The notes: generated by a model not told the origin, from the sequence alone. DNA of 33,747 bases from Gammaproteobacteria bacterium (GCA_024277575.1 JAJRUX010000090.1:1-33747); one strand, 5' to 3'. Counted from the stretch's first letter, positions 5,324 through 22,352 are shown. Numbers and translations are program-made.

Positions 5324-8300
5324 ATGAGTCACTTTCTCGACCGATTGAGATACTTCAAAAAAGTCCAGGAAACTTTTTCCGATGGGCATGGCATTACCAC
5401 TGATGATGATCGCCAATGGGAAGATGCCTATCGTAATCGCTGGCGTTTTGACAAAGTGGTGCGTTCTACCCACGGCGTAAATTGTACCGGTGGCTGTTCC
5501 TGGAAAATCTTCGTCAAGAATGGTCTGGTGGCCTATGAGATGCAGCAGACCGACTATCCCCGCACCCGGGAGGATCTGCCCAACCACGAGCCCCGTGGTT
5601 GTCAGCGCGGAGCCAGTTTCTCCTGGTATCTTTACAGCCCCCATCGCATCAAGTATCCGCTTATGCGCGGTCGCCTGATGGATCTGTATCGCGCAGAACG
5701 TGCAGAAGGTAAAGATCCTGTAGAGGCTTGGGAGGCTATTCAATCCGATCCGGAAAAACGTAAGCGCTATACCGCTGTTCGCGGCCTGGGCGGATTTGTC
5801 CGCAGCGACTGGGAAGAGGTAACAGAGGTTATTGCTGCTGCAAATGTTTATACCATTAAAAAATGGGGTCCGGATCGTATCTACGGCTTCTCCCCCATCC
5901 CGGCCATGTCCATGATCAGTTACGCGGCCGGATCACGTTATCTATCATTGATTGGTGGTGCATGCGGTTCATTCTATGACTGGTACTGCGATCTGCCTGC
6001 TGCCTCCCCACAAGTATGGGGTGAGCAGACTGACGTGCCGGAATCCGCAGATTGGTACAACTCCAAGTACCTTATAATTTGTGGCGCCAACCTGCCCATG
6101 ACCCGTACCCCCGATGCCCATTTCGCGATTGAGTCTCGCTATAACGGCACCAAAGTCGTATCCATGGCTCCTGATTATGCGGAGTATGTGAAGTTCGCAG
6201 ATCTCTGGATGCCGGTCCGTCAGGGGACTGACTCGGCTGCCTTTATGTGCATGGCTCATGTTGCACTGAGAGAATTCCATATTGATAAACAGGACCCCTA
6301 TTTCACCGAATATGCGCGGACATATACCGATATGCCCATGCAGGTGATGTTGCGCAAAGATGGTGATCGTTATATTTCAGATCGCTTCCTGCGTGCCTCC
6401 GATTTTGATAACAGTCTGGGTGAAAAAAATAACCCGGAGTGGAAAACCATTGTTTATGACGCAAAAACCGGGAGCTTTGTCTGTCCTAATGGCTCTGTTG
6501 GTTTTCGTTGGGGCGAAGAAGGAAAGTGGAATCTTCTGCCAAAAAACTCGGCGGATCAATCCGAAATTGAGGCTGAACTCTCCTGCATCGAAAACCGGGA
6601 TGATGTGGTGCCGGTAGCATTCCCCCACTTCACTCCTGATGAAGATGACACCTTGATCCGCAATATTCCTGTGCGCAAACTGAACATCAATGGAAAAGAG
6701 GTGCTTGTCACCTCCGTATTTGACATGATGATCGCACAGTATGGTATCGACCGGGGACTGGGCGACAATCTCGCCACCAGTTACGATGATGCCTCTGTTC
6801 CCTATACCCCTGCCTGGGGTGAGAAAATTACCGGGGTCAAGGCCGCTGATCTGGAACGCACCGGCCGGGAGTTTGCTGATAACGCCTCCAAGACCAGAGG
6901 TAAATCCATGGTCATAATGGGTGCAGCCATTAACCATTGGTACCACAATGACATGGGCTACCGCAGCATCATGAACATGCTGCACATCTGCGGCTGTGTT
7001 GGTCAGTCCGGTGGTGGCTGGGCGCATTATGTGGGCCAGGAGAAACTTCGACCCCAGGCTGGCTGGGCTCCAATTGCATTCGCGCTTGACTGGCATCGTC
7101 CACCTCGCCACATGAACAGTACGACTTACTGGTATTTCCATACGGATCAGTGGCGCTACGAGAAGGTTGAGGCTGATGGTGTGCTGGCCTCTACCGCCAA
7201 GGCAAAATACAAGGGTTATCAGCTGTGTGACTACAATGTGGTTTCACAACGTCTTGGCTGGTTACCTTCTGCTCCCCATTTCAACAAGAACCCGATGGAC
7301 ATTGTTGCAGATGCTGAAAAGTCTGGTGCCACAGATGAAGCGGGTGTAGCCAGCTATATGGTTGACCAGCTGAAGAGTGGCGATCTGGCCTTTGCTGCTG
7401 AAGATATTGATGCCCCGGAAAACCATCCCCGCAACCTGTTTGTGTGGCGTGCCAATCTGTTGGGTTGTTCTGCGAAAGGGCATGAGTATTTCCTCAAGCA
7501 TCTGGTAGGCGCCCAGAACGGTGTAATGCAGGAAGGGATTGAAGGAAAGAACTCCAAAGAGATCAAGTGGCGTGAAAAATCACCTGTCGGAAAGCTGGAT
7601 CTGATGGTGGATATCAACTTCCGCCTCAACTCGACGGGCGCCTATTCGGATATCATCTTGCCCACAGCAACCTGGTATGAAAAGGCGGACCTCAATACCA
7701 CAGATATGCATCCGTTCATTCATCCGCTGGGCAAGGCTGTAGATCCGGCCTGGGAGTCCAAATCTGACTGGCAGATTTTCCGCAGCATCGCGAAGCGTTT
7801 CTCCGAGCTGGCGGAAACTCATTTGGGAACACGCAAGGATGTGGTTGCTTTGCCGATGCAGCATGACAGCCCCATGGCTCTGGCTCAACCGTTAGGGCAA
7901 GTCAAGGATTGGAAAAGAGGTGAGTGTGAACCTGTTCCGGGCAAGACGCTGCCACTGCTCAAAGTTGTTGAGCGGGACTATCCCAACACCTACAAAAAGT
8001 ACTCCTCACTTGGCCCATTGATGAACAAGCTGGGCAACAATATCAAGGGTCTTGACTGGAATACTGATCTTGAAATTTAACAGCTCGCTGAATTGAACGG
8101 GGTAATCAAGGAAGAAGGTGTTTCCAAAGGAAGACCCTCTCTTGAAGAGGATATTGCAGTATGTGACACTGTGTTGCGGATGGCTCCAGAGACCTGTGGC
8201 GAGGTGGCTCATAAATCCTGGAGTGCTCTCTCCAAGAAGACAGGCATCGATCACAGCCATCTCTATGAAGGGCGGCATGAGGAGAAAATCACCTATGCCG

Positions 8301-9082
8301 ATATCATCGCCCAACCCCGCAAAATCATTACCGCACCAACCTGGTCGGGTATCGAGTCGGAGAAGGTCAGTTACAACGCGGGATATACCAACATCCATGA
8401 GCATATTCCGTTCCGTACGCTGACCGGACGCGCCCACTTCTATCTTGACCACGAGTGGATGCTGGACTTCGGTGAAGGTCTTTGCTGCTTCCGTCCACCG
8501 CATGATCTGAAGGCACACACCAATCTGCCCAAGGAGCTTGCAGGAAAATTGCAGGGCAAGAAGACCCTGACCCTCAACTGGATTACCCCACACTCCAAAT
8601 GGGGCATCCACTCCACCTATCAGGATAACCTGCGGATGTTGACATTGTTCCGCGGCGGCCCGTACTTCTGGGTGGCCGAGGAAGATGCCAAGTCCATCGG
8701 CCTGAAAGACAACGACTGGGTGGAAGCGGTCAACTCCAACGGCGCAACGGTAGCCCGGGTTGTTGTAAGTCAGCGTGTCCCGCGCGGGATGGCGCTTATG
8801 TATCACGCTCAGGAGAAGAACGTCAACGTTCCCGGCTCCAATACAACCGGAAAACGGGGCGGAATCCTGAACAGTGTCACCAAAGTCATTATCAAGCCTA
8901 CCAATATGATCGGCGGGTATGCGCAACTCTCATACGCCTTCAACTATTACGGTACGGTAGGGTGTCAGCGTGATGAACACGTTATCGTTCACAAAATCGA
9001 GGACAAAGATATCGATTGGCTGGAACGGCCGTTGACGCCGGAGCGCGAAGTACAACTCAATCCGGTCGGGATCAAGAACTGA
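5324..9082 (+). pseudogene. narG: Respiratory nitrate reductase alpha subunit NarG, interrupted by an in-frame TAA at 8078-8080
   Basis: ORFs 5324-8080 and 8093-9082 share one frame (offset 2769) and together give 1252 aa, close to E. coli NarG. N-part has VNCTGGCSWKIFVKNG; C-part has SPTWSG-like, PHSKWGIHSTY, NYYGTVGCQRDE motifs. Confidence 0.95.
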
Positions 9083-9095
9083 GGAGAACAACAGC

Positions 9096-11045
9096 ATGAA
9101 GATTCGCGCACAAATTGCGATGGTATTGAATCTGGACAAGTGCATCGGTTGCCATACCTGTTCAGTGACCTGCAAAAACCTGTGGACCAACCGCAAGGGG
9201 GTCGAATATGCCTAGTTCAACAACGTTGAAAGCAAACCTGGCGTTGGATTTCCCAAAGAGTGGGAAAACCAGGACAAATGGAAAGGTGGATGGGAGAAAA
9301 AAGGTGGGAAACTGGAACTGAAATCCGGTGGCCGCCTGAGCAAGCTGCTCAACATCTTCAACAATCCGGATATGCCGGAGATTGATGATTACTATGAGCC
9401 CTTTGATTACGATTATCAGAAGCTGCAGAACAAGCCGCTTTCCGAGGCTGCCCCTACCGCCCGTCCGGTATCCCAGATTACCGGCGAACATATGGAGAAA
9501 ATCCATTGGGGTCCCAACTGGGAAGATGACCTGGCCGGTGAGTTTGAAAAACGCGCCAAGGACAAGAACTTTGATGGCATCCAGAAGCAGATGTATTCGG
9601 AGTTTGAAAAAACCTTCCACATGTACCTGCCGCGCCTGTGCAATCACTGCCTTAACCCGGCCTGTGTTGCCTCCTGCCCTTCCGGCGCTATCTACAAGCG
9701 CGAAGAAGACGGGATAGTGCTGATCGATCAGGATCGGTGTCGTGGTTGGCGGATGTGCGTCAGCGCCTGCCCCTACAAAAAGATCTATTTCAACTGGGAG
9801 TCAGGAAAATCCGAAAAATGCATCCTCTGTTATCCACGTGTGGAATCCGGTATGCCAATGGCCTGTGCCGAATCCTGCGTGGGCCGGATTCGCTATGTCG
9901 GTGTAATGCTCTACGATGCAGATCGCATCCTTGGTGCAGCGGAAACCGGCAGGGAGAAAGATCTCTATAATTCACAAATGGAAATCTTCCTTGATCCCAA
10001 CGATCCGGAGGTTATCCGTCAGGCTCGTGAAGATGGTATTCCGGATGCATGGGTTACCTCTGCGCAAAACTCTCCGGTATGGAAAATGGCAATGGAGTGG
10101 AAGATCGCATTTCCGATTCATCCCGAGTTCCGCACCCTGCCGATGATGTGGTATGTCCCTCCCCTGTCACCGGTACAGAGTCAACTTGATCAGGGTAATC
10201 TGCCAACCGAGGCAGACGGAGTCATTCCCAAGGCGGAAGCGCTGCGCTTCCCTGCCCGCTACCTTGCCAATCTGCTGACGGCGGGCGAAGAGGCACCAAT
10301 CATCAATGCGTTGAACCGCATGATGGCGATGCGGAGCAATCAGCGCTCCAAAGCTGTAGACGGCAAACCAAACAGTGCGGTACTTGAGACGGTGGGCCTC
10401 ACTGAGGCGCAGTCGGACGAGATGTATCGTTACCTTGGAATTGCCAATTATGAAGATCGCTTTGTTATCCCAACGGCCCATGAAGAGATGAAGCAGGAAG
10501 ATCCTTACGCATTCCAGGGCCAGAATGGTTTTTCAATCGGCAATACCAGCTCCCAAGGTAATAGCAAGGAGTTTTCACTGTTCCCAACCAGGCGCACAAG
10601 CTCGGTAACTCCGATGCAGTATATGCCAAGGCCGAAAAAGACCTCGGCACCTGTGGCGGTAGCGTCAAGTGCTGCTACCGCTGTTGCGGGGAATACCGCA
10701 CTTGCCGAACCAGCACCAGTTGAAGTTGAGGAAACAGTTCCGGTCGCAGAGGTTGCCCCCAAACCGGCTACTGCTGTTAGTGGTGAAGGTGATGATCTTA
10801 AAAAAATTGAGGGAATTGGTCCCAAAATATCTGAAATACTGAATAATAACGGTATTTCCACTTTTGCTGAGCTGGCTGCAATGGCGCCTGATGCGATTAA
10901 GGATATTCTTGTTGAAGCAGGACCCCAGTATAACCGCGCGGATCCCAGCACCTGGCCCGATCAGGCTGCCCTTGCCGCCAAGGGAGACTGGGATGCCTTG
11001 CAGAAATGGCAGGATGAACTCGACGGTGGTCGGCCAAAAGGCTAA
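9096..11045 (+). pseudogene. narH: Respiratory nitrate reductase beta subunit NarH with C-terminal HhH extension, interrupted by an in-frame TAG at 9213-9215
   Basis: ATG 9096 after GAGGAGAACAACAGC. MKIRAQIAMVLNLDKCIGCHTCSVTCKNLWTNRKGVEYA*FNNVESKPGVGFPKEWENQDK... matches E. coli NarH (GVEYAWFNNVETKPG); TAG replaces Trp TGG. ORF 9372-11045 continues the same frame. Confidence 0.95.
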
Positions 11046-11091
11046 CTGGAATCGACAGAGATACCCCTGATTGAATAGAGAGAGACTATTT

Positions 11092-11622
11092 ATGGAGACA
11101 CAATCCATGCAATTGTACCGACTGATTGCGCGTCTGCTTGACTACCCTCAAGCGGAACTGCTGGAGCATCTGCCGGTGTTTGAAGAGCTGCTGGACAGTA
11201 ATTTGGACATTACGGAGCACGAGCGCAAAACTATTAAGGATATTCTCGCTTGGATGCGCATGCACAATATCACCGGGCTGCAGGAGACCTACGTGCAGAC
11301 TTTTGATATGACTCCGGAACACGACCTTCACTTGACTCATCATCTGTTTGGGGATGATCGGGGACGTGGACCGGCCTTGGTGGATCTTGGTGAACACTAC
11401 AAGGCGGCCGGGCTGGAGGTTGAAGAAGGGGAGCTGCCTGACTACCTGCCGCTTATTCTTGAGTATATATCTACTCTGGATGATATGCAGGCCCGGGTTT
11501 TCCTGGGAGATGCGCTGAAGGTGTTGACTGTCCTGGCAGAAAATCTGGAAAAAGCCGGCAGCCCGTACAGCCGACTGATTCGAATCATCGAAAGCCGGGG
11601 CCACCTGGCCCAGGCAGCCTGA
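11092..11622 (+). CDS. narJ: Nitrate reductase molybdenum cofactor assembly chaperone NarJ
   Basis: METQSMQLYRLIARLLDYPQAELLEHL...DMTPEHDLHLTHHLFGDDRGRGPALVDL; position between narH and narI. Confidence 0.93.
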   Translation: METQSMQLYRLIARLLDYPQAELLEHLPVFEELLDSNLDITEHERKTIKDILAWMRMHNITGLQETYVQTFDMTPEHDLHLTHHLFGDDRGRGPALVDLGEHYKAAGLEVEEGELPDYLPLILEYISTLDDMQARVFLGDALKVLTVLAENLEKAGSPYSRLIRIIESRGHLAQAA

Positions 11623-11633
11623 GGAGAAAGCTC

Positions 11634-12323
11634 ATGAATGACTTTATATTTGGTGTCTATCCCTATATTGCGGGTACCATTTTTTTACTAGGTAGCTGGA
11701 TCAGGTTCGACCGTGAACAATACACATGGAAAGCTGACTCCAGCCAGTTCCTTAATAATGACAAAATGCGCCTGGCGAGCAATCTGTTCCATATAGGAAT
11801 TATCGCCGTATTTTTTGGCCATTTTTTTGGTATGCTTACGCCACACAGTGTATTTCTGGCCTTTGGAATATCTGATCTTGCCCATCAGAAAATCGCCATT
11901 GTTGCCGGAATAATATTCGGTGGCATGTGTCTGATTGGTGCAACCATGCTGATTATGCGGCGCATGAAGGAACCACGTATCGTGGCAACAAGCCGCAAGC
12001 GGGATTTGCTGGTTATCGGCTGGCTGTTAGCGACCGTTATTGTGGGGCTTCTTACCACGCTGGTTTCCATGAATCATGTATCGCATGGCGATGCGTCAAC
12101 GATGATTGCCTTGACCAGTTATGTGCAGAGTGTGGCCACCTTGCAGGCAGATCCAAGTTTACTGGTAGATGTGAATCCAATCTATAAGTTTCATATGCTG
12201 CTGGGGATGACAGTATTTCTAATATTCCCCTTCACGCGTCTTGTTCATATCTGGAGTGTTCCGCTGACCTACCTTAGCCGGGCCTACCAGATTGTTCGCA
12301 CCAAATATGTAACAGCTCGTTAA
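11634..12323 (+). CDS. narI: Respiratory nitrate reductase gamma subunit NarI
   Basis: MNDFIFGVYPYIAGTIFLLGSWIRFDREQYTWKADSSQFL..., ending FPFTRLVHIWSVPLTYLSRAYQIVR; typical NarI. Confidence 0.95.
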   Translation: MNDFIFGVYPYIAGTIFLLGSWIRFDREQYTWKADSSQFLNNDKMRLASNLFHIGIIAVFFGHFFGMLTPHSVFLAFGISDLAHQKIAIVAGIIFGGMCLIGATMLIMRRMKEPRIVATSRKRDLLVIGWLLATVIVGLLTTLVSMNHVSHGDASTMIALTSYVQSVATLQADPSLLVDVNPIYKFHMLLGMTVFLIFPFTRLVHIWSVPLTYLSRAYQIVRTKYVTAR

Positions 12324-12598: not shown

Positions 12599-13798
12599 TT
12601 ATAGCGCTGATGCCTTTCCGGCTTTAGTATGCGAGCGTGAAGCCAATATTCCACTTTTTTCATTTGCCACCGGTAGCTGACTGTGTGTGCTACCTGCTTC
12701 TCGGTAATCACCATCACTATCTGCTGTGGTGATATACCAAGCTGATTGATCTGACATCAGTTCGCGGGTTAGCCCGGAGTTACTGTTTATGTTGGCCATA
12801 ATTCGTGTAAATGAGGGACGTTTACAGAAACCAAGAGGGTACAGGCGTTTACCCGCTTCGGGGAAGGCAGCTCTACAATAGACAGCAGCTATACCGCTAC
12901 GGCGCAGTATTTTCAAACAAACGGCCATGAGTGGAGCAATCAGGGAAGGTGGACAGAGAAAGTCTACAATGGTCGTAATTGCTACCCCGTCACGCACTGA
13001 ATTTCTTGCTACAATATAGCCGCAAATATCACCACCTTTATATAGATAAAAGCGCTGATAGTGTTGAGACTCTGCTATAGTGTCAAACCTCCATCGTAAA
13101 CTTTCAAAATCGCGTTTTGCTATAACCGGATAGAATTTGCTTGAAACCGCCCATACTTGATCTGCACGCTGATCAAATTGCTCTATTCGTTCCAGTTTGA
13201 CTCCTGAAAAACGGGCCACCAGATCACTACCCACATCCATTGCAGAAAGGAACGCATTGCAAAGCGTTGCAGCTGTCCAATGTACCAGGTTGTCTGGAGA
13301 ACGGTTAAATAACGGCAACATCCGTATGGCATCAAGTGGTCGTATAAAAACCGGCATCTTCCCCAGATTGATCCAGCCAGCGCGCAGGTAGGAGTGATAC
13401 GCATCGTCTGTTATACCAATCCCGACGGTGATATCACTATCCTGCCGGTGCGCTTCACTCAGGATATTGCCAATGCCACGCATACGAAATTCAGGCCTAA
13501 CCATAAGATCAACCGCCCAGGAGGCTGTATAGGGTTTTCCCTCCACCAGCAGTGAGAATGGAATGCCTGCCTGCTGTCCGTGGACAGTGCCGTCTTCTTT
13601 GCGATAGATCCAGAACTGTGGTCCGCCCGCCCGTTTATGGGGGTTTTTTTCATGGATCCACTGATAATGAAGTTCATCAAAAAGGGGTAAATCCGGATCC
13701 TGAATGTCTCTCTGGAATGCTACCAGTGCTGATTGAGCTTCGGGTGTTAGCCGCGTGATATTGCGTTTAATCCTGTCCAGATATTTCATTTCCTGCAT
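12599..13798 (-). CDS. GNAT-like acyltransferase family protein (paralog of 19265-20371)
   Basis: GNAT-like core: VDLMVRPEFRMRGIGNILSEAH...GITDDAYHSYLRAGW; shared blocks with 19265-20371 (QFWIYR, GQQAGIP, SW..DLM, RARGIG-like, RDFESLRWRFD). Confidence 0.75.
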   Translation of the reverse strand: MQEMKYLDRIKRNITRLTPEAQSALVAFQRDIQDPDLPLFDELHYQWIHEKNPHKRAGGPQFWIYRKEDGTVHGQQAGIPFSLLVEGKPYTASWAVDLMVRPEFRMRGIGNILSEAHRQDSDITVGIGITDDAYHSYLRAGWINLGKMPVFIRPLDAIRMLPLFNRSPDNLVHWTAATLCNAFLSAMDVGSDLVARFSGVKLERIEQFDQRADQVWAVSSKFYPVIAKRDFESLRWRFDTIAESQHYQRFYLYKGGDICGYIVARNSVRDGVAITTIVDFLCPPSLIAPLMAVCLKILRRSGIAAVYCRAAFPEAGKRLYPLGFCKRPSFTRIMANINSNSGLTRELMSDQSAWYITTADSDGDYREAGSTHSQLPVANEKSGILASRSHTKAGKASAL

Positions 13799-14109
13799 CC
13801 TGGCATTTTTCTGCCATTATTTGATGATGCAGCACTCCCAGCTGCCTTACAGAGAAAGCTGAAATCCGTTTCTGCTTGTTGCGGGGAATGGGCGCTTGAT
13901 AGCGAGAACGGCCGCGTTCACTGGCAAAGCAACGTCTCTTGCGAACAGTTATCAAGAATAAGCAGTCTGCTGAAAAACCAAACCAGCTCCCCCCCACCTA
14001 TTTTGGCTAAGTTTAACTGGATTTATAGCCTTGTCAACACAATAACCATCCGCTTTTCGTAAGACTGGAGGTGGCGAAAACTCGGCTCTTTACTGCAGTT
14101 GCTCCGATG

Positions 14110-15546
14110 TTACGATGAAGCATCAGAATCGATATCTATCTCCCCCAGCACGTTATATCCGTGCTCCGCACTCCAAATCTCTTCATTGGCAAAGCGGATG
14201 GAAAACCCGGGTTTGTCCCGTAGATGTTCTGATTCATCAGGTAACCAAAGAGCGAGCTTATATCTCCCGTTTGGTATTTCCGCTGGAAGTTGTACTGTTG
14301 CATTGAGCGATATCTCTTCTCCGGGACTCCACCAGCGGGGATCTACCTCCTCCAGCAGGAGATCAAAACGTTCTGTCCCGTTATCAAATACCACATAAAC
14401 CGGCCGCGGATTATACAGATTTGCCCAACCATCGTTACGCAAGGCAAGTTGCAGACTAACGGTGTTGCCTGGTTTAACTTCAGCTGAAATACGGGCGCTG
14501 TGTAACAGGAACCGGTAACCCAGCTTCCGTTGCATCACCTCATAATCACCCGTTGTCCGCCAATAGCTGATCATATCGGGATGATAGTAAACATTGATGT
14601 AGGTCCACCGCAGATATTCCATCTCTTGCAGGGCCTCGTTTTCACGCCCCATTATGCAGGACTCGCCTCCTACAGGAGTATAGAGTGCCTCTCGACGAAT
14701 ATACGCTTTCATCTTGTTGATATCATCCTGCGAGGCGTCGCTGTTCGGCAGATAACCTTCATCCTCGGTTGCTATTGCCAGAAAGCAGTCATTATGATGT
14801 CCAATTCGGGCGGCGTATTCCCCACTGTAGGCCAACTGTCTGTCCACCTCTCTGTCATAGAGTTGTTTCTTCCTGAATGGATATCGAATCTGGACCATTC
14901 GTGATTCAGGCAGCGCATCGAGTAGTGCTTCGATGATCTCCTTGCTGTCCTGTGGGTCATCCATCAATCTATTTGTGGAGTGATGCCATTCACCCCATGA
15001 GCCGATAAAACCTGCCGGAATATAAGCAATAACATCTGAATACTTATTAAATATTGGTTTTAACTGGCTAATATGCTTGAGTATTGTGTTCTTGTTTGCA
15101 TCGGGGCAATCGAAACAGCCGTTGTACGCAAAACGCAGGAGAACTTTAATTCCCGGGCTATTGCGAAGTGAGGCTAACCCCTCTTCCAGATTGTTCAGCA
15201 GTGATGCCGGAAGCTCTGATTGTCTATAATCATCGAGACGAACGGTAGCGGCTACCAGTGTTCGGCCATGTCTGACATCACTTTCATAATCCCCTTTTTC
15301 AAAACGATCCTGAAGAAGCCTGGAGCCGCCATAAAAGCCCCGCTCCGGATTGGGGAAAATTTCATTACTGGCAACGTATGTATAGCGCTCAATAAGGGCA
15401 CCGGATGTCAATGGGGAATTATCGCTGCCCTCCGAAATCTGTTGTGGATCGGACGAACCACTCTCACATCCGGAAAGAAAAAATCCCATGGCCAACAGAG
15501 AAATAATGATTAAGGTTTTCCAACTTCCCCGCCCTGCTTTATTCAT
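14110..15546 (-). CDS. DUF4874/DUF4832-type lipoprotein
   Basis: Lipobox FFLSGC; NPERGFYGG...LRFAYNG...IGSWGEWHHSTN...YPFRKKQLY; predicted start MNKAGRGSWKT at 15546. Confidence 0.75.
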   Translation of the reverse strand: MNKAGRGSWKTLIIISLLAMGFFLSGCESGSSDPQQISEGSDNSPLTSGALIERYTYVASNEIFPNPERGFYGGSRLLQDRFEKGDYESDVRHGRTLVAATVRLDDYRQSELPASLLNNLEEGLASLRNSPGIKVLLRFAYNGCFDCPDANKNTILKHISQLKPIFNKYSDVIAYIPAGFIGSWGEWHHSTNRLMDDPQDSKEIIEALLDALPESRMVQIRYPFRKKQLYDREVDRQLAYSGEYAARIGHHNDCFLAIATEDEGYLPNSDASQDDINKMKAYIRREALYTPVGGESCIMGRENEALQEMEYLRWTYINVYYHPDMISYWRTTGDYEVMQRKLGYRFLLHSARISAEVKPGNTVSLQLALRNDGWANLYNPRPVYVVFDNGTERFDLLLEEVDPRWWSPGEEISLNATVQLPAEIPNGRYKLALWLPDESEHLRDKPGFSIRFANEEIWSAEHGYNVLGEIDIDSDASS

Positions 15547-15863
15547 TACTACTCTCCACATATTAAAGATTCTTGAACATGAAAAGCACGATACTACAAG
15601 TCGTGGCTATTTAAACCGGGGTTCATCACATTTTTTTAAAAGAAAAAATGCCAAAACCCATGCCGCCAATATTTTGGCGAAAATTCAGCAAGTTCGTCTT
15701 AAGGTTAGACTCATGAATCCGGCCAATCCTGTTTGCGAATCACCCACAGTTCATATAGCATAGCCAGCATAAGATTGCGCCCCAAAACAAAAACAATAAG
15801 CTACCCCCCGCTGATAAATTTGGTTGCAAGCCTGTTTCTGGCCTGTATGAATAATAGTGAGCT

Positions 15864-17813
15864 ATGTGCGGAATAACCGGAATACTTAACCTGCGAGACC
15901 TGCCCTTCCCCTCACGGGAAGAGTTGCAACCGATGATTACCCGGCTGGCCCACCGCGGTCCCGATGGCTTTGGTTTTTACGTGGATAACCGGGTTGGTCT
16001 GGCCCATTCACGACTCAGCATTATCGATCTGCAGGGTGGCGATCAACCTATACATAATGAGGATAACACTATTCAGGTTGTCTTCAACGGGGAAATATTC
16101 AACTATATCGAACTCCGCAAGATGCTAGGACACCAAGGGCATCGCTTCTACACCCGTTCAGACACGGAGGTGATTGTGCATCTCTACGAGCAGTACGGAG
16201 ATGAATTTGTCACTCACCTTAACGGCCAGTTTGCCATCGCCCTGTGGGACAAAAAGCTTCAACGCCTGATTCTGGCTCGTGATCGCACCGGGATTCGCCC
16301 CCTGTTTTACTCTGTTACTGATGGCCGGTTGTTTTTTGCCTCTGAAGTGAAGGCGTTATTCGCACATCCTGCTGTCAAACGGCGTTTGGATCTCAAAGCC
16401 ATGGGGGAGATATTTACTTATTGGGCACCATTGCCGTCCCATAGCATATTTGAAGGGATCTCAACCCTCCCACCAGGCCATATAATGATAGTGGAAAAAG
16501 GGAAACTCGATATCAGGCAGTATTGGGATTGGGAGTTCCCTACCGATATTCCTGATCAGCGCTCTGCAGACGATCTGGCGGCTGAACTCAAAGAGTTGTT
16601 AATCGATTCAGTCCGGTTGAGATTGCGCTCTGATGTTCCGGTCGGGGCCTACCTTAGCGGGGGGCTGGACTCATCGGTTACCACGTCATTAATCAAACAC
16701 TATACCGATGTGCCGCTACGCACCTTTTCTGTCTCGTTTGAAGATGATGAATTTGATGAAAGCGATTACCAGAAGCAGCTGGTTGACTATCTCCATACTG
16801 ATCACAGCCATGTGCTGTGCAAAAAAAGTGATATCCGTGATCTGTTCCCCAAGGTAATCTGGCATACTGAATCGCCCATTTTACGTACTGCTCCAACACC
16901 CTTGATGATCCTTTCAGCAAAGGTGCGTTCCGAGGGATACAAGGTGGTACTGACAGGTGAAGGGGCTGATGAGGTTCTGGGTGGTTATGATATTTTCAAG
17001 GAGGCAAAGATCAGACGCTTCTGGGGGCGTTTCCCTGACTCAAAGATGCGCCCGATGATTCTGGACAGACTTTATCCCTATCTAAAAAACTCCCCCATGG
17101 CCAGCCGCGCTTATGCCCAGCATTTTTTCAAGCAAGGTATGGAACAGTTTGACAAACCCTATTTCGGACATACTCCCCGATGGATGACTACCCGTCGCAG
17201 CTGGCAGTTCTTCAGCCCTGACGTAAAGGCAGAACTGCAGGAGCATCACTCTTATGAAGCACTGGAAAAGATACTGCCGGCTGAGATTAATCAATGGAAG
17301 CCGCTTAACCGGGATCAGTATATTGAGGCACATACCCTGATGTCCGGTTATCTGCTTAGCTCGCAAGGGGATCGGGTTGCGATGGCCAGTTCCATTGAGG
17401 GGCGTTTCCCATTCCTCGATCATCGGGTGATCGAGTTTGCCAACCAGTTGCCGCTGCGCTATAAAATTATGGGACTTAACGAAAAATATCTGCTTAAAAA
17501 AGCAATGAAAGGGATTATTCCCGAGAATATCCGCAATCGCACCAAACAACCCTACCGGGCTCCTGATAGCCAGTCTTTCTTTATAAAAGGTAAACCGGTG
17601 GAGTATGTAGAACAGCTTCTGAGCAAGCAAAGAATAAACCAGACAGGCTATTTTGATGCGCAGGCCGTTACCCGACTGGTAAATAAATGTTGTAAAGGAC
17701 GAGCCATCGGGTTTGCCGACAACATGGCGTTTGTTGGAATCCTCTCTACCATGTTACTTGATGACATGTATATCCGGTCGTCATCAACCATGAGTGACAG
17801 TATGTCTTGTTAA
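15864..17813 (+). CDS. asnB: Asparagine synthase (glutamine-hydrolysing) / AsnB-type amidotransferase
   Basis: MCGITGILN (Cys2 nucleophile), HRGPDGFG, VFNGEIFNY, YLSGGLDSSV, LTGEGADEVLGGYD. Confidence 0.93.
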   Translation: MCGITGILNLRDLPFPSREELQPMITRLAHRGPDGFGFYVDNRVGLAHSRLSIIDLQGGDQPIHNEDNTIQVVFNGEIFNYIELRKMLGHQGHRFYTRSDTEVIVHLYEQYGDEFVTHLNGQFAIALWDKKLQRLILARDRTGIRPLFYSVTDGRLFFASEVKALFAHPAVKRRLDLKAMGEIFTYWAPLPSHSIFEGISTLPPGHIMIVEKGKLDIRQYWDWEFPTDIPDQRSADDLAAELKELLIDSVRLRLRSDVPVGAYLSGGLDSSVTTSLIKHYTDVPLRTFSVSFEDDEFDESDYQKQLVDYLHTDHSHVLCKKSDIRDLFPKVIWHTESPILRTAPTPLMILSAKVRSEGYKVVLTGEGADEVLGGYDIFKEAKIRRFWGRFPDSKMRPMILDRLYPYLKNSPMASRAYAQHFFKQGMEQFDKPYFGHTPRWMTTRRSWQFFSPDVKAELQEHHSYEALEKILPAEINQWKPLNRDQYIEAHTLMSGYLLSSQGDRVAMASSIEGRFPFLDHRVIEFANQLPLRYKIMGLNEKYLLKKAMKGIIPENIRNRTKQPYRAPDSQSFFIKGKPVEYVEQLLSKQRINQTGYFDAQAVTRLVNKCCKGRAIGFADNMAFVGILSTMLLDDMYIRSSSTMSDSMSC

Positions 17814-17939
17814 GGCTTCACATCGGATCTTTATTGCAATATCATTAGCAAATTATCATATCCCCGCCTTGCCCAAGTGATAAAAAGAGGGGGAGCGCGT
17901 TTTTTATTTTTCATTAACCAAATACGGAGAGAGGCGACA

Positions 17940-18188
17940 ATGGCAGAGGCCAAAACAGCCGTTAAAGCGTATATTTCAGAAAACTTTCTGATGGGTCAAA
18001 ACGATATAAACCTGGAGGATGAAACCTCTTTTCTGGAGCTAGGCCTTCTGGACTCCACTGGAGTTATTGAACTGGTCTCTTTCCTTGAAGAAGAGTTCAA
18101 AATTCAGGTAGAAGATGATGAAATTACGCCGGAAAATCTTGACTCGCTGAACAAGATTTCCAGTTATGTAGAGAGAAAATCAGCATAG
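17940..18188 (+). CDS. Acyl carrier protein (stand-alone, phosphopantetheine attachment motif LDSTG)
   Basis: ATG 17940 after GGAGAGAGGCGACA; FLELGLLDSTGVIELVSFLEEEFKIQVEDDEITPENLDSLNKI is an ACP signature. Confidence 0.9.
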   Translation: MAEAKTAVKAYISENFLMGQNDINLEDETSFLELGLLDSTGVIELVSFLEEEFKIQVEDDEITPENLDSLNKISSYVERKSA

Positions 18189-18209
18189 TTTAGGAATTGG
18201 GGGGAACTC

Positions 18210-19202
18210 ATGACTTCATCATCCTTGGGCAAGCAGGTTCTCGAACTCGATTGCGAGCGGGAAATCGAAAAAATCTGTAGCGCTCTTCAGGACTACAACA
18301 GAAAGTATCGCCGCCGTGGTGCAGTTATTGCCATGTCCGGCGGTATAGATAGCTCCGTCTGTGCGGCCCTATGCACCAAGGCTTTTGGACCTGGAAGGGT
18401 ACAGGCTCTGTTGCTTCCGGAACAGGACTCTTCCCAGAGCAGCTCGAGTTTGGGAGGCATGTTGGCCAAACATCTTGGATTGGAGTATATCGCAACGGAT
18501 CTTTCTCCCACGCTGGAGGCCATCGGTTGCTACCAGTGGCGGGATGAAGCCATTCGTACCCTGTTTCCCGATTATCAGCAAGACTGGAAAAGCAAAATTG
18601 TAATTTCAGGTGGAGCCAAAGGGGGCTTTCACTATTTCCGGTTGATAGTTCAAACTCCGGACGGCGAATTGCTCGAGAAACGTCTTCCTCACAAGGCCTA
18701 TCTGCAGATTGTAGCTGCTACCAACTTCAAACAGCGGATCCGCAAGACGATTGAATATTTTCATGCCGACCGCCTTAATTACAGCGTTATTGGAACACCT
18801 AACCGGGTTGAGTATGACCAGGGATTCTTTGTAAAAAACGGTGATGGTTCAGCCGATATCAAGCCAATTGCACATCTCTACAAGACCCAGGTTTATGCCT
18901 TGGCTCGGCATATGAACCTTCCGGAGGCGATCTGCACAACCACCCCCACTACAGATACCTACAGTCTGCCCCAGGGGCAGGATGAATTTTATTACGCCCT
19001 GCCCTACGACAAAATGGATCTGGCATTGTGGGCTCATAATCATGGGATTTCAGCAGAGGAATTGGCGCAAGCCCTTGATATCGAATTGGAGCAGGCGAAG
19101 CTGGTTTACGCTGATATTGAGGCAAAACGCAATACCACCAAATACATGCATGCCAGACCAAGCCTGGTAGAGCCCGTATCGGAGATTCAACCAGACAGCT
19201 GA
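18210..19202 (+). CDS. NadE-like NAD synthase family / N-type ATP pyrophosphatase amidase
   Basis: AVIAMSGGIDSSVCAAL (PP-loop), VIGTPNRVEYDQGFFVKNGDGSADIKPIAHLYKTQVYALARHMNLPEAI...PTTDTYSLPQGQDEFYYALPYDKMD; no glutaminase domain; strong GGGGG SD. Confidence 0.85.
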   Translation: MTSSSLGKQVLELDCEREIEKICSALQDYNRKYRRRGAVIAMSGGIDSSVCAALCTKAFGPGRVQALLLPEQDSSQSSSSLGGMLAKHLGLEYIATDLSPTLEAIGCYQWRDEAIRTLFPDYQQDWKSKIVISGGAKGGFHYFRLIVQTPDGELLEKRLPHKAYLQIVAATNFKQRIRKTIEYFHADRLNYSVIGTPNRVEYDQGFFVKNGDGSADIKPIAHLYKTQVYALARHMNLPEAICTTTPTTDTYSLPQGQDEFYYALPYDKMDLALWAHNHGISAEELAQALDIELEQAKLVYADIEAKRNTTKYMHARPSLVEPVSEIQPDS

Positions 19203-19264
19203 TAGAGAACGGGTAGCGTTCAGACTTTCCCGTCTGAATCAGTGATTATGTCCAGACCTATCTG

Positions 19265-20371
19265 GTGAGCAGCTATAAAGACAGAATTAGACAACACATC
19301 CGCAGGCTATTGCCCGCGGATATTCCAGAGTTGCGTAAATTTCAGTGTGAGCTGTTTGGTGGTCCGGACGCTATCCAGGTAAAGGAAGAGCATCATCAGT
19401 GGTTATTCGACCATAACCCATATAACGACAGAGATCTGCCGCAATTCTGGATCTATCGGGATGACAATGGCGTTATCCAGGGTCAGCAAGCGGGGATTCC
19501 CTATATTCTGCAGACGGGCAACGATTCATGGCGCGCATCATGGGGGATTGATCTGATGCTGTCACCCGAGTATCGCGCCCGTGGTATAGGTGCCGTTCTC
19601 AATAACGATTATATGCAGACCAATGAGGTTACCACCGCTATTGGTATCACTGAGGCGGCACGAAAGAGCCATTGTCGTGCCGGATGGTTCGATTTAGGTA
19701 CTATTCCCCTCTATGCCCGACCGCTTAGCATGGAAGGTATTCGAGCCGGTTTTTCCTCAAGTCATCTAAAGGGAAAACTTGTGGCCCCGTTTACCTGGCC
19801 ATTTTTGCGGCTATTGGAAAGTGGCTGGCTGTCCTATCTTCGCCTCAGAGGTATTCGCCTGGAACCAATCAAGAGATTTGATGAACGGGTTGATGCTGTC
19901 TGGGAGAGTCTCAGAAGAGACTATCCGCTGCTGGCACGGCGCGATCTGAAAAGTTTGCGCTGGAGATTTGATGCAGCTCCCGAACCGGAGCGCTACCGCA
20001 AATATTACCTCTATCAGGGATACCAACTGAGTGGATATGCGGTTATCTGTTTTGGAAAAAGGGGAGATCGGGCAGCGGCTGTGTTGACGGATTTTCTGTG
20101 TCTGCCGAACTTGCAGAAAGCGCTTTTTGCACTCTGTATAACAGCCAGCCGAATCGCCGGAGCCAACGATCTCCATTGTGCGGTGCTGTCACCTCATATC
20201 ACTGCGGCTGACATGAAGATGGTTGGTTTTCTCCCACTCCCACAGCGCTCTTACTTTATGGCTTTCGCAGACTCGACCAAGGGTCCTTCTCGCGCACTGC
20301 TTGCCAACCCGAAAAACTGGTTTGTCACCATGGCGAACAGCGATATGGAATGGATGTATTTCCTGGGATAG
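19265..20371 (+). CDS. GNAT-like acyltransferase family protein (paralog of 12599-13798)
   Basis: GTG start; WGIDLMLSPEYRARGIGAVLN...GITEAARKSHCRAGW; paralogy to 12599-13798 seen by eye. Confidence 0.75.
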   Translation: MSSYKDRIRQHIRRLLPADIPELRKFQCELFGGPDAIQVKEEHHQWLFDHNPYNDRDLPQFWIYRDDNGVIQGQQAGIPYILQTGNDSWRASWGIDLMLSPEYRARGIGAVLNNDYMQTNEVTTAIGITEAARKSHCRAGWFDLGTIPLYARPLSMEGIRAGFSSSHLKGKLVAPFTWPFLRLLESGWLSYLRLRGIRLEPIKRFDERVDAVWESLRRDYPLLARRDLKSLRWRFDAAPEPERYRKYYLYQGYQLSGYAVICFGKRGDRAAAVLTDFLCLPNLQKALFALCITASRIAGANDLHCAVLSPHITAADMKMVGFLPLPQRSYFMAFADSTKGPSRALLANPKNWFVTMANSDMEWMYFLG

Positions 20372-20558
20372 CAGTTTTATAACTGCTTTATTGTTTGGAA
20401 ATAGCGCCACGGGTTATTTTCCGATGATCCTTCAAGGAGTGGTTATGCTGGCGGCGTTGCGGTTCGTTGCAAATAGAATAATCATTACTTCTCACCGCAT
20501 CTCGCCAGGAAAAAATCTCGGAATTACACTTGCTCAGCCGGTCAGGAACGCCCCTCCC

Positions 20559-20921
20559 CTAGTTCGGAAACTTGGGGTCATTGGCAAATGTTTCACGCAG
20601 ATAGGCAATAACATCATCAATTTCCCGATCTGTCAGAAACTGGGGCGGCATCGCACCTGCCGTATAGTGTTTTCCGGGGGTTTGAAAACCGTTGCGAATA
20701 CTCTCCGCCAGCTCTTCATCGGATTTGGTGAAACGGTGCCACTCCTGCTGAAAGTTGGCGGCCATTCCATTATTACCATCACCATTCACCCCATGACACA
20801 TAGCGCATCGCTGGGAGTAAACCAGCTGTCCCCTTTCCGGATCGCCAAAAACCGCGTGTGATAAAGATGACACCCCCACCCATAGAGCCGCGGTTACGGC
20901 AAAAACTGAAACTGGCTTCAT
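20559..20921 (-). CDS. Secreted monohaem cytochrome c
   Basis: Signal peptide MKPVSVFAVTAALWVGVSSLSHA; RGQLVYSQRCAMCHGVNGDG (CXXCH); distal GAMPPQFL Met ligand region. Confidence 0.92.
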   Translation of the reverse strand: MKPVSVFAVTAALWVGVSSLSHAVFGDPERGQLVYSQRCAMCHGVNGDGNNGMAANFQQEWHRFTKSDEELAESIRNGFQTPGKHYTAGAMPPQFLTDREIDDVIAYLRETFANDPKFPN

Positions 20922-20930
20922 GTGTACCTC

Positions 20931-21581
20931 CTAGTTGGCCTTTTTTGCCGGTTTTGCATCCAACAACTCAATTTGCAGCTCGCTGCTGTTGAAGGTATTA
21001 AACTCCGGATAGTTTTTGAATACCCACCCTTTTGCCAACACCTTATCTCCCTTCGTCAAATGTACCAGTGCAGCTGGATTGTTCAAGGTATCTGAGGCAG
21101 AGGTGGCTTTTTCAAAATCGCTGGTATAATCCGGCAGGAACTCATCTACAACAACCACTATTCCGTCTGATACGTCCGTTTTTCCACCAATAGCAACTGT
21201 ATACTCGCTTTTGTCACTATCCTTTCCGCTAATGCCCAGTTGAACCGCTGTCCATTTTCCCTTGATGTTTTCAGGGATAACCACTTCAACCTCTTTGGTT
21301 TCGGATAACACCTGTGGAGGATGGCCCATCATTTCTGTTTCTGCTGCCATCTGGGCGTGATCAGCCGGCACTCCATTTTCTGCAATGGGGTCAAGGGGAG
21401 GATGATTTGGCGGCAATGGAGCACCTGGTTGATAGGGGTCATTTGCAGTTGCAACTGCTATGCTCTCCTTTGGAGTGGGAGTGGCCTGTTCCTTTCAGCA
21501 ACCACTCAATGAAACGAGTAAGGCAACGGAGCAGGTACCAACAATAAAAAGCCGCGAAATAAATCCTGTATTACTTCCCAT
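20931..21581 (-). pseudogene. Putative lipoprotein interrupted by an in-frame TGA at 21495-21497
   Basis: ATG at 21581 with GGAGAGAAT SD; MGSNTGFISRLFIVGTCSVALLVSLSGC*KEQATPTPKESIAVATANDPYQPGAPLPPNHPPLDPIAENG...; 55-codon offset to the tracked ORF (TTG 21416) is in frame. Confidence 0.75.
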
Positions 21582-21704
21582 ATTCTCTCCAGTTTCTTTC
21601 TGATTTGAACAATAATTTCAATTGTGCCCGGTATGGTTACTCCAGAACAGACAAAAAAGTTCAATAATAATTCCCCTGAGGCACTTTTTGGCCGACCTGC
21701 CACG

Positions 21705-22352
21705 TCAACCCGGTTTGTCTCGTGGCGGTTTGCCGGGCACCAACCGCGGTTCTTCCACCGTTTGTCCAAACAGTCGTGCCATTCTGTATAACATCCAGCG
21801 TATTCCCTGGTAAATACGGGGCAACAACCAGACCATGAATACGATAAAAAACAGCAACAGGATCAGGAATGCCCACGGATAGGTCAGTGCGCTCCACAAG
21901 CCGGCAAATACAGCGACATCTTCACTTACTGATGCCATCCAGTTGCTGACAGGTTCAGGTGAGCTGTTGATAATAACCCGGCTGCCGGCTTTGGTGGCAT
22001 GTGTGGCGGCAGTGAGACTACCGCCAAGCAGCAGCCCCGCCGCCTCTGCTGCCGGACTGATTTCGGCCATCCCCCCGGCCGCCAGCATGGCGCCCGCCGG
22101 AATACGGATAAAGGTATGAATGGCATCCCAGCCGCTATCTACTCCGGGGATCTTGTCGGTAAAAAACTCAACACAGTACATGATCCCTGCGGCGCCCATT
22201 ACCAGCGGATTGGTTAAAAACTGCAATTCCGGCGGCAAATCCATGTGCCCGGTTGAGCCCATAAAACCGAGAACAAAAACGGCTGCATAAAGATTGATAC
22301 CACTGGCCCAAGCAGCCCCCATGGAAAGCGCGACAGCTTCAGTGATCCCCAT
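21705..22352 (-). CDS. DUF4126 family membrane protein
   Basis: SGINLYAAVFVLGFMG...FFTDKIPGVDSGWDAIHTFIRIPAGAMLAA...LGGSLTAATHATKAGSR matches the DUF4126 pattern. Confidence 0.85.
   Translation of the reverse strand: MGITEAVALSMGAAWASGINLYAAVFVLGFMGSTGHMDLPPELQFLTNPLVMGAAGIMYCVEFFTDKIPGVDSGWDAIHTFIRIPAGAMLAAGGMAEISPAAEAAGLLLGGSLTAATHATKAGSRVIINSSPEPVSNWMASVSEDVAVFAGLWSALTYPWAFLILLLFFIVFMVWLLPRIYQGIRWMLYRMARLFGQTVEEPRLVPGKPPRDKPG

Follow-up and report, generated by a model that had tools for sequence, protein, structure and literature searches.

Organisation of the locus

The window analysed here is a 33,747-nucleotide stretch of DNA from a gammaproteobacterium (GCA_024277575.1, JAJRUX010000090.1:1-33747). 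Six open reading frames lie between positions 12,599 and 20,371 (Table 1); an ORF check of the window confirmed all six at the positions given in a preliminary description. Four of them form a co-oriented run from 15864 to 20371 on the plus strand, encoding an AsnB-type amidotransferase, an acyl carrier protein (ACP), a NadE-like protein and a tandem GNAT. A second GNAT and a lipoprotein with DUF4874 and DUF4832 domains are encoded on the opposite strand. The run and the family assignments of the preliminary description are upheld by domain searches and, as it also states, a glutaminase domain is absent from the NadE-like protein.

Table 1. Features of the locus and the basis for each assignment
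Feature	Coordinates	Strand	Basis or remark
Second tandem GNAT, paralogue of the first	12599..13798	-	Pfam; 38% identity
DUF4874+DUF4832 lipoprotein, divergent from AsnB	14110..15561	-	Pfam; local neighbour outside the conserved module
AsnB-type glutamine amidotransferase, 649 aa	15864..17813	+	Orthologous to AsnB of the conserved cassette
Dedicated acyl carrier protein, ~82 aa	17940..18188 (probable start)	+	PF00550; start-site inspection; relatives
NadE-like putative amide synthetase (NF002048/PRK00876 clade)	18210..19202	+	Profiles, alignment, model, tree
Tandem-GNAT putative acyltransferase, N-myristoyltransferase-like fold, final gene of the run	19265..20371	+	Pfam, model
Terminator-like hairpin, directly 3' of the final gene	20370..20387	+	Consensus match only

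The intergenic gaps within the run are 126 bases between AsnB and ACP (counted to an ATG at 17940), 21 between ACP and the NadE-like gene and 62 between the NadE-like gene and the GNAT. The ACP reading frame opens at GTG 17877. This listed start is probably wrong and the true start is probably ATG 17940, because the latter has a good ribosome-binding site and gives a match to relatives of about 82 residues. The AsnB-ACP gap contains a promoter-like match (17817-17845); such matches are rarer than in shuffled sequence, so little weight is attached to it. Profile searches with Pfam and NCBIfam found no ligase, NRPS or PKS within the run, and no glycan genes adjoin the cassette within the window.

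Proteins encoded in the window

The AsnB protein retains the catalytic Cys (MCGI...) and both the glutaminase and the synthetase domain. It matches Asn_synthase (321 bits) and GATase in Pfam, and TIGR01536 (526 bits, above the cut-off) in NCBIfam. Its scores against the XrtA/PEP-CTERM amidotransferase model TIGR03108 (476 bits, cut-off 816.9) and the AsnB equivalog NF006949 (336 bits, cut-off 499) fall short.

The ACP matches the PP-binding family PF00550 over its cut-off (28.6 bits). The phosphopantetheine Ser of the LLDSTG motif is kept, and DS.G is conserved in 46 relatives. The solved structures nearest to it are peptidyl carrier proteins; the best include PigG and PltL. A weak match to NF052616 (60 bits, cut-off 130) prompted consideration of a link to ornithine-lipid OlsHI, which was dropped; the enzyme in the OlsHI paper (PMC12493201) is of GH3 type, and the text refers neither to an acyl carrier nor to an asparagine synthase.

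Both GNATs give weak GNAT matches in Pfam, and neither matches an NCBIfam model at E 0.01, N-acyl amino acid synthase included. The predicted model of the GNAT that ends the run (pLDDT 93) is a double GNAT resembling N-myristoyltransferases and a tandem GNAT. L003, the closest relative, is the sole other locus with the second GNAT at this place. The lipoprotein matches DUF4874 and DUF4832 with 133 and 184 bits.

The NadE-like protein matches NAD_synthase in Pfam (164 bits) and NF002048 in NCBIfam (486 bits, cut-off 313). Besides this subfamily model it passes only the broad domain model TIGR00552 (148 bits, cut-off 64); it fails all the NadE equivalog models (PRK13980, 168 bits for a cut-off of 255; PRK13981, 84 for 479; PRK00768, 95 for 250). 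The N-type ATP pyrophosphatase motifs, a P-loop SGG(I/V)DS and GT.N..E..GFF.K.GDG..D, are present as SGGIDSS and GTPNRVEYDQGFFVKNGDGSAD. Their Gly, Asn, Glu, Lys and GDG..D residues are invariant in 43 relatives and can be aligned with canonical enzymes.

In the same alignment, the NadE-like protein has about 50 more residues than canonical NadE between its two halves (within ~105-165), and a C-terminal motif, PTTDTYSLPQGQDEFYYALPY, where canonical NadE has P(S/T)..LW...TDE. In the predicted model (pLDDT 90) the extra segment contains three strands (residues 127-159); the best matches of the model are NH3-dependent NAD synthetases, with a TM-score of about 0.8-0.9 by target length. A tree separates the NadE-like proteins from canonical NadE (support 100/99), across very long branches. 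On these comparisons the protein belongs to a distinct clade with an intact ATP-pyrophosphatase site. Fold and site are common to it and to NH3-dependent NadE, from which it differs in the extra residues, the C-terminal motif, the presence of a second NadE in the genome and its genetic pairing with an ACP.

A conserved four-gene cassette

Two samples of loci were compared. A scan of one genome per species gave 65 loci with NadE-like relatives, counted as 66 with the window (sample 1); these come from Gamma- and Betaproteobacteria, Myxococcota and other former Deltaproteobacteria, Bdellovibrio and Actinobacteria. Sample 2 consists of the 17 carriers detected when 369 gammaproteobacterial genomes were searched with a profile. 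The carriers score 465-511 bits, canonical NadE at most 92 bits and one decayed copy 260 bits; linkage counts for sample 2 refer to 16 carriers and the decayed copy. The samples overlap in part (G212 is L004 and G077 is L017). Neighbourhoods were read by homology-guided gene picking, and linkage was counted within 6 kb of the NadE-like gene.

The order AsnB-ACP-ligase-NadE-like, in which the ligase is AMP-dependent, recurs in most of the 65 loci and again in most sample 2 neighbourhoods. Variants include ligase-ACP-NadE-AsnB in Bdellovibrio and NadE-ligase-ACP in Myxococcota, the latter without AsnB nearby in some myxobacterial loci. AsnB is linked to the NadE-like gene in 44/66 and 14/17 loci of the two samples, an ACP of the same family in 59/66 and 16/17, and the ligase in 50/66 and 13/17; several of the misses are due to contig ends. 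In a few loci, L021 and L053 among them, the NadE-like gene has no cassette partners. An association of these genes far beyond chance is confirmed. The preliminary description had named genes that do not travel together as evidence against its proposal; both samples contain a conserved cassette instead.

When the cassette is broken up, ACP and the NadE-like gene usually stay adjacent. This is seen in L004, L058, L065 and L067, where AsnB and the ligase are absent nearby and the two reading frames overlap or nearly do so.

A GNAT lies near the NadE-like gene in 27/66 and 2/17 loci; other loci have FemAB-like or hexapeptide transferases. The GNAT is a lineage-specific partner, for which a final-step role is plausible but would not be universal. 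The DUF4832 lipoprotein had also been counted as part of the system. It is rejected as a module member, being near the NadE-like gene in 3/66 and 0/17 loci.

Co-occurrence and a ligase in trans

A phylogenetic profile was compiled for 50 genomes (17 carriers and 33 non-carriers), with orthologues called at E <1e-130 for AsnB and E <1e-100 for the ligase. The AsnB orthologue is present in 16/17 carriers and 0/33 non-carriers (Fisher p 3e-12); in the one carrier without it (G187) the cassette is cut by a contig end. The ligase orthologue is present in 12/17 carriers and 2/33 non-carriers (p 4e-6), and in the remaining five the ligase found beside the NadE-like gene is more divergent. The two non-carriers are G313 and G204. 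The G313 assembly is probably incomplete there, because a clear canonical NadE is also missing; G204 keeps the ligase orthologue without AsnB or the NadE-like gene and is a genuine exception.

The genome to which the window belongs encodes an AMP-dependent ligase (C198:1651-3195) that is 56% identical to the cassette ligase of L064. The contig is 4.3 kb long, and the ligase gene has a porin gene as its neighbour; the corresponding order is oligopeptidase, ligase, porin in the congener G212 and oligopeptidase, ligase in G313 (gene names assigned by eye). G212 has kept the ACP-NadE-like pair, AsnB and the ligase on three contigs, and the ligase is likewise separated from an AsnB-ACP-NadE run in G307 and G077, which belong to an unrelated family. 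Since the ligase is in trans here and dispersal is also found in these genomes, the window holds the cassette in a partly dispersed state and does not represent a smaller pathway. The earlier picture of a minimal pathway in which the NadE-like protein is the activating enzyme is contradicted by the ligase found in most loci and by its orthologue on C198.

The top-scoring families for the ligase are long-chain fatty-acid ligases and the XrtA-associated acyl-CoA ligase; its score against the model of the latter, TIGR03098, is under the cut-off (396 bits, cut-off 592). Adenylation domains for alpha-amino acids typically have an Asp at a given position. By eye, this position falls in FYYSYG, which has no Asp, and alpha-amino-acid specificity is not favoured.

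The same genome encodes a full-length glutamine-dependent NAD synthase of 554 aa on contig C132 (PRK13981, 798 bits). A full-length canonical NAD synthase is found in 16/17 carriers, this genome included; G072 is the sole carrier without one at the threshold used. NAD synthesis is therefore not the likely task of the NadE-like protein. This bears out the earlier view that the protein is not needed for NAD, and the outcome named against that view, a NadE-like protein as the only NAD synthase of its genome, is not what was found.

Glycan and exosortase context

Many cassette loci lie among polysaccharide genes of the XrtA/PEP-CTERM type, encoding an export protein, a kinase, deacetylases, FemAB, an ATPase and glycosyltransferases. 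The preliminary description's carrier-protein amidation system with an envelope or polysaccharide context is supported, as an interpretation.

The ACP-NadE pair of G212 lies near sugar genes that, read by eye, resemble those of nonulosonic-acid synthesis. On contig C69 of the window's own genome, glycosyltransferase and deacetylase genes are clustered with a further AsnB and GNAT.

An exosortase is encoded on contig C170 of the same genome. Exosortases are found in 12/17 carriers and 16/33 non-carriers, a difference that is not significant (p 0.23); none was detected in five carriers, and 5/17 carriers have one no more than about 16 kb from the cassette. As exosortase is not significantly enriched in carriers, the cassette cannot simply be assigned to the PEP-CTERM system, and an obligatory association is rejected.

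Proposed pathway and alternatives

NAD synthetases adenylate a carboxylate, which is then attacked by ammonia. With middling confidence, the locus is read as a local, partly broken-up accessory cassette that would build an amide-bearing acyl unit on a carrier for surface-polysaccharide modification. The pathway that we infer, in its substrates, order of steps and product alike, would run as follows. The AMP ligase, here in trans on C198, would adenylate a carboxylic acid and load it onto the phosphopantetheine of the ACP. Using NAD-synthetase chemistry, the NadE-like protein would amidate a carboxylate that is free on the ACP-bound substrate or on one derived directly from it; it is the adjacency of the ACP and NadE-like genes that suggests such a substrate. 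A dicarboxylic substrate would account for an amide synthetase beside a loading ligase. AsnB would give ammonia from glutamine and/or amidate a second carboxylate, e.g. that of a uronic acid, as WbpS does. Finally, an acyltransferase (GNAT here, FemAB-like or hexapeptide elsewhere) would transfer the acyl unit to an amine; the likeliest acceptor is an amino sugar within an exopolysaccharide or O-antigen. The lack of adjoining glycan genes in the window, the weak GNAT linkage in sample 2, the loci in which AsnB or all partners are missing nearby and the ligase orthologue that G204 keeps by itself weigh against this pathway.

A more specific form of this proposal is possible and is put forward tentatively: an enzyme of NAD-synthetase fold may have been recruited as an amide synthetase for ACP-tethered substrates, with the insertion as docking element and with an amide-bearing acyl product destined for a surface glycan or for the compound onto which exosortase transfers proteins.

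It is rather unlikely that the cassette yields a small amide of an N-acyl amino acid, or a small aminolipid (a signal or surfactant), in place of a polysaccharide substituent. Ligase and ACP would in that case supply a fatty acyl group, with which the GNAT-fold enzyme would acylate an amino acid, and the NadE-like protein or AsnB would amidate the carboxylate. The best-scoring families of the ligase and the N-myristoyltransferase-like fold of the GNAT model would fit, and N-acyl amino acid synthases are mentioned together with PEP-CTERM/exosortase in passages of the literature. However, neither GNAT matches an NCBIfam model for N-acyl amino acid synthases, a GNAT is absent near most sample 2 loci, and the nearest solved relatives of the ACP are peptidyl carrier proteins.

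An improbable explanation, by analogy with the Wbp/Vim sugar of Porphyromonas (uronamide plus aminoacyl group), is that the cassette makes the linking compound onto which exosortase transfers PEP-CTERM proteins. The exosortase gene on C170, the proximity of others to the cassette and excerpts of PMC7468200, which link WbpS, VimE and VimA to such a sugar and note the PEP-CTERM analogy, are consistent with it; the lack of significant enrichment and the carriers without a detected exosortase argue against it. For the NadE-like protein, a role as redundant NAD synthase merely located in a biosynthetic operon is very improbable: this view has the catalytic motifs, the TIGR00552 score and the NAD(+) synthase name of NF002048 in its favour, whereas the canonical enzyme of most carriers, the patchy presence (17/369 gammaproteobacterial genomes), the close linkage to ACP and the insertion, altered C-terminal motif and separate clade all speak against it.

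Relation to known systems and implications

DltA/DltC, PltF/PltL and PigI/PigG each pair a stand-alone adenylating enzyme with a discrete carrier protein. The cassette likewise has a discrete ligase and a discrete carrier, whose solved relatives include members of two of these pairs. It differs from such systems in that its ligase lacks the adenylation-domain Asp (by eye) and that amide synthetases belong to the set.

The XrtA/PEP-CTERM exopolysaccharide genes provide the second-best named families for AsnB (TIGR03108) and the ligase (TIGR03098), and many cassette loci lie among them. However, both proteins score too low against these models, exosortase is not obligatory, and we know of no NadE-like member in the described system.

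Nearest in logic among described pathways is the Wbp/Vim pathway of P. gingivalis, with an AsnB-type amidotransferase, deacetylation and a GNAT/FemAB-like acyltransferase acting on an amino sugar. According to the excerpts of PMC7468200, the linking sugar is made with the AsnB-type WbpS (uronamide), VimE and the FemAB/GNAT-like VimA, which determines its aminoacyl group. An ACP is not mentioned in that paper, and the excerpts name no AMP ligase or NadE-like protein; the present cassette adds all three.

A full-text literature search, with most subscription journals outside its scope, found no description of the AsnB-ACP-ligase-NadE set. Glycan-associated amidation is already known; the NadE-like protein is the unusual enzyme within it. 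NF002048 is widespread and annotated as NAD(+) synthase, and its members seem to be biosynthetic enzymes of a conserved four-gene cassette that ranges from Gammaproteobacteria to Myxococcota, Bdellovibrionota and Actinobacteria. If this is true, a common misannotation would be corrected and carrier-bound amidation would join the known uses of the NAD-synthetase fold; the cassette would also be a testable candidate for the source of amide-bearing groups, so far unexplained, on bacterial surface sugars or exosortase anchors.

Genes flanking the cassette in the window

A respiratory nitrate reductase set lies immediately upstream of the GNAT-to-GNAT region; its genes other than NarI were named by eye. 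The ORF for the iron-sulfur subunit opens at 9372, encodes 557 aa and ends in a helix-hairpin-helix-like stretch (DDLKKIEGIGPKISEILNNNGI). In the close relative L003, this subunit is encoded by a single ORF of 646 aa; the difference in length points to a possible frameshift 5' of 9372 in the window gene.

Coordinates of flanking genes and of a decayed NadE-like copy
Feature	Position	Strand	Remarks
Nitrate reductase set	window 5324-12323	+
NarI	window 11634-12323	+	PF02665, 262 bits
Small cytochrome c, unassigned 161-aa protein, DUF4126 protein	window 20559-22352	-	past cassette, opposite strand to it
Decayed NadE-like copy (L134)	G137:C8:107991-108506		half length, one stop

Variation among cassette loci

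A 3.4-kb contig labelled Candidatus Nomurabacteria (L061) has the gene order LIG-ACP-NadE-AsnB, which is that of Bdellovibrio loci; this contig is likely mis-binned. The GNAT adjoining the decayed NadE-like copy is intact and belongs to the same family as the cassette GNAT; an AsnB orthologue was not found in the host genome, G137.

Some variants carry additional genes. L006, L022, L032 and L122 contain an inserted PrmC/HemK-type methyltransferase gene beside the ligase or NadE-like gene, the L006 product scoring barely above the PrmC cut-off. A FabH-like ketoacyl synthase III is added in L016, L018, L020, L023, L024 and L039, all from Burkholderiales except one Pseudomonadales locus; its presence hints at a possible role for this enzyme in extending or transferring the acyl group held on the ACP.
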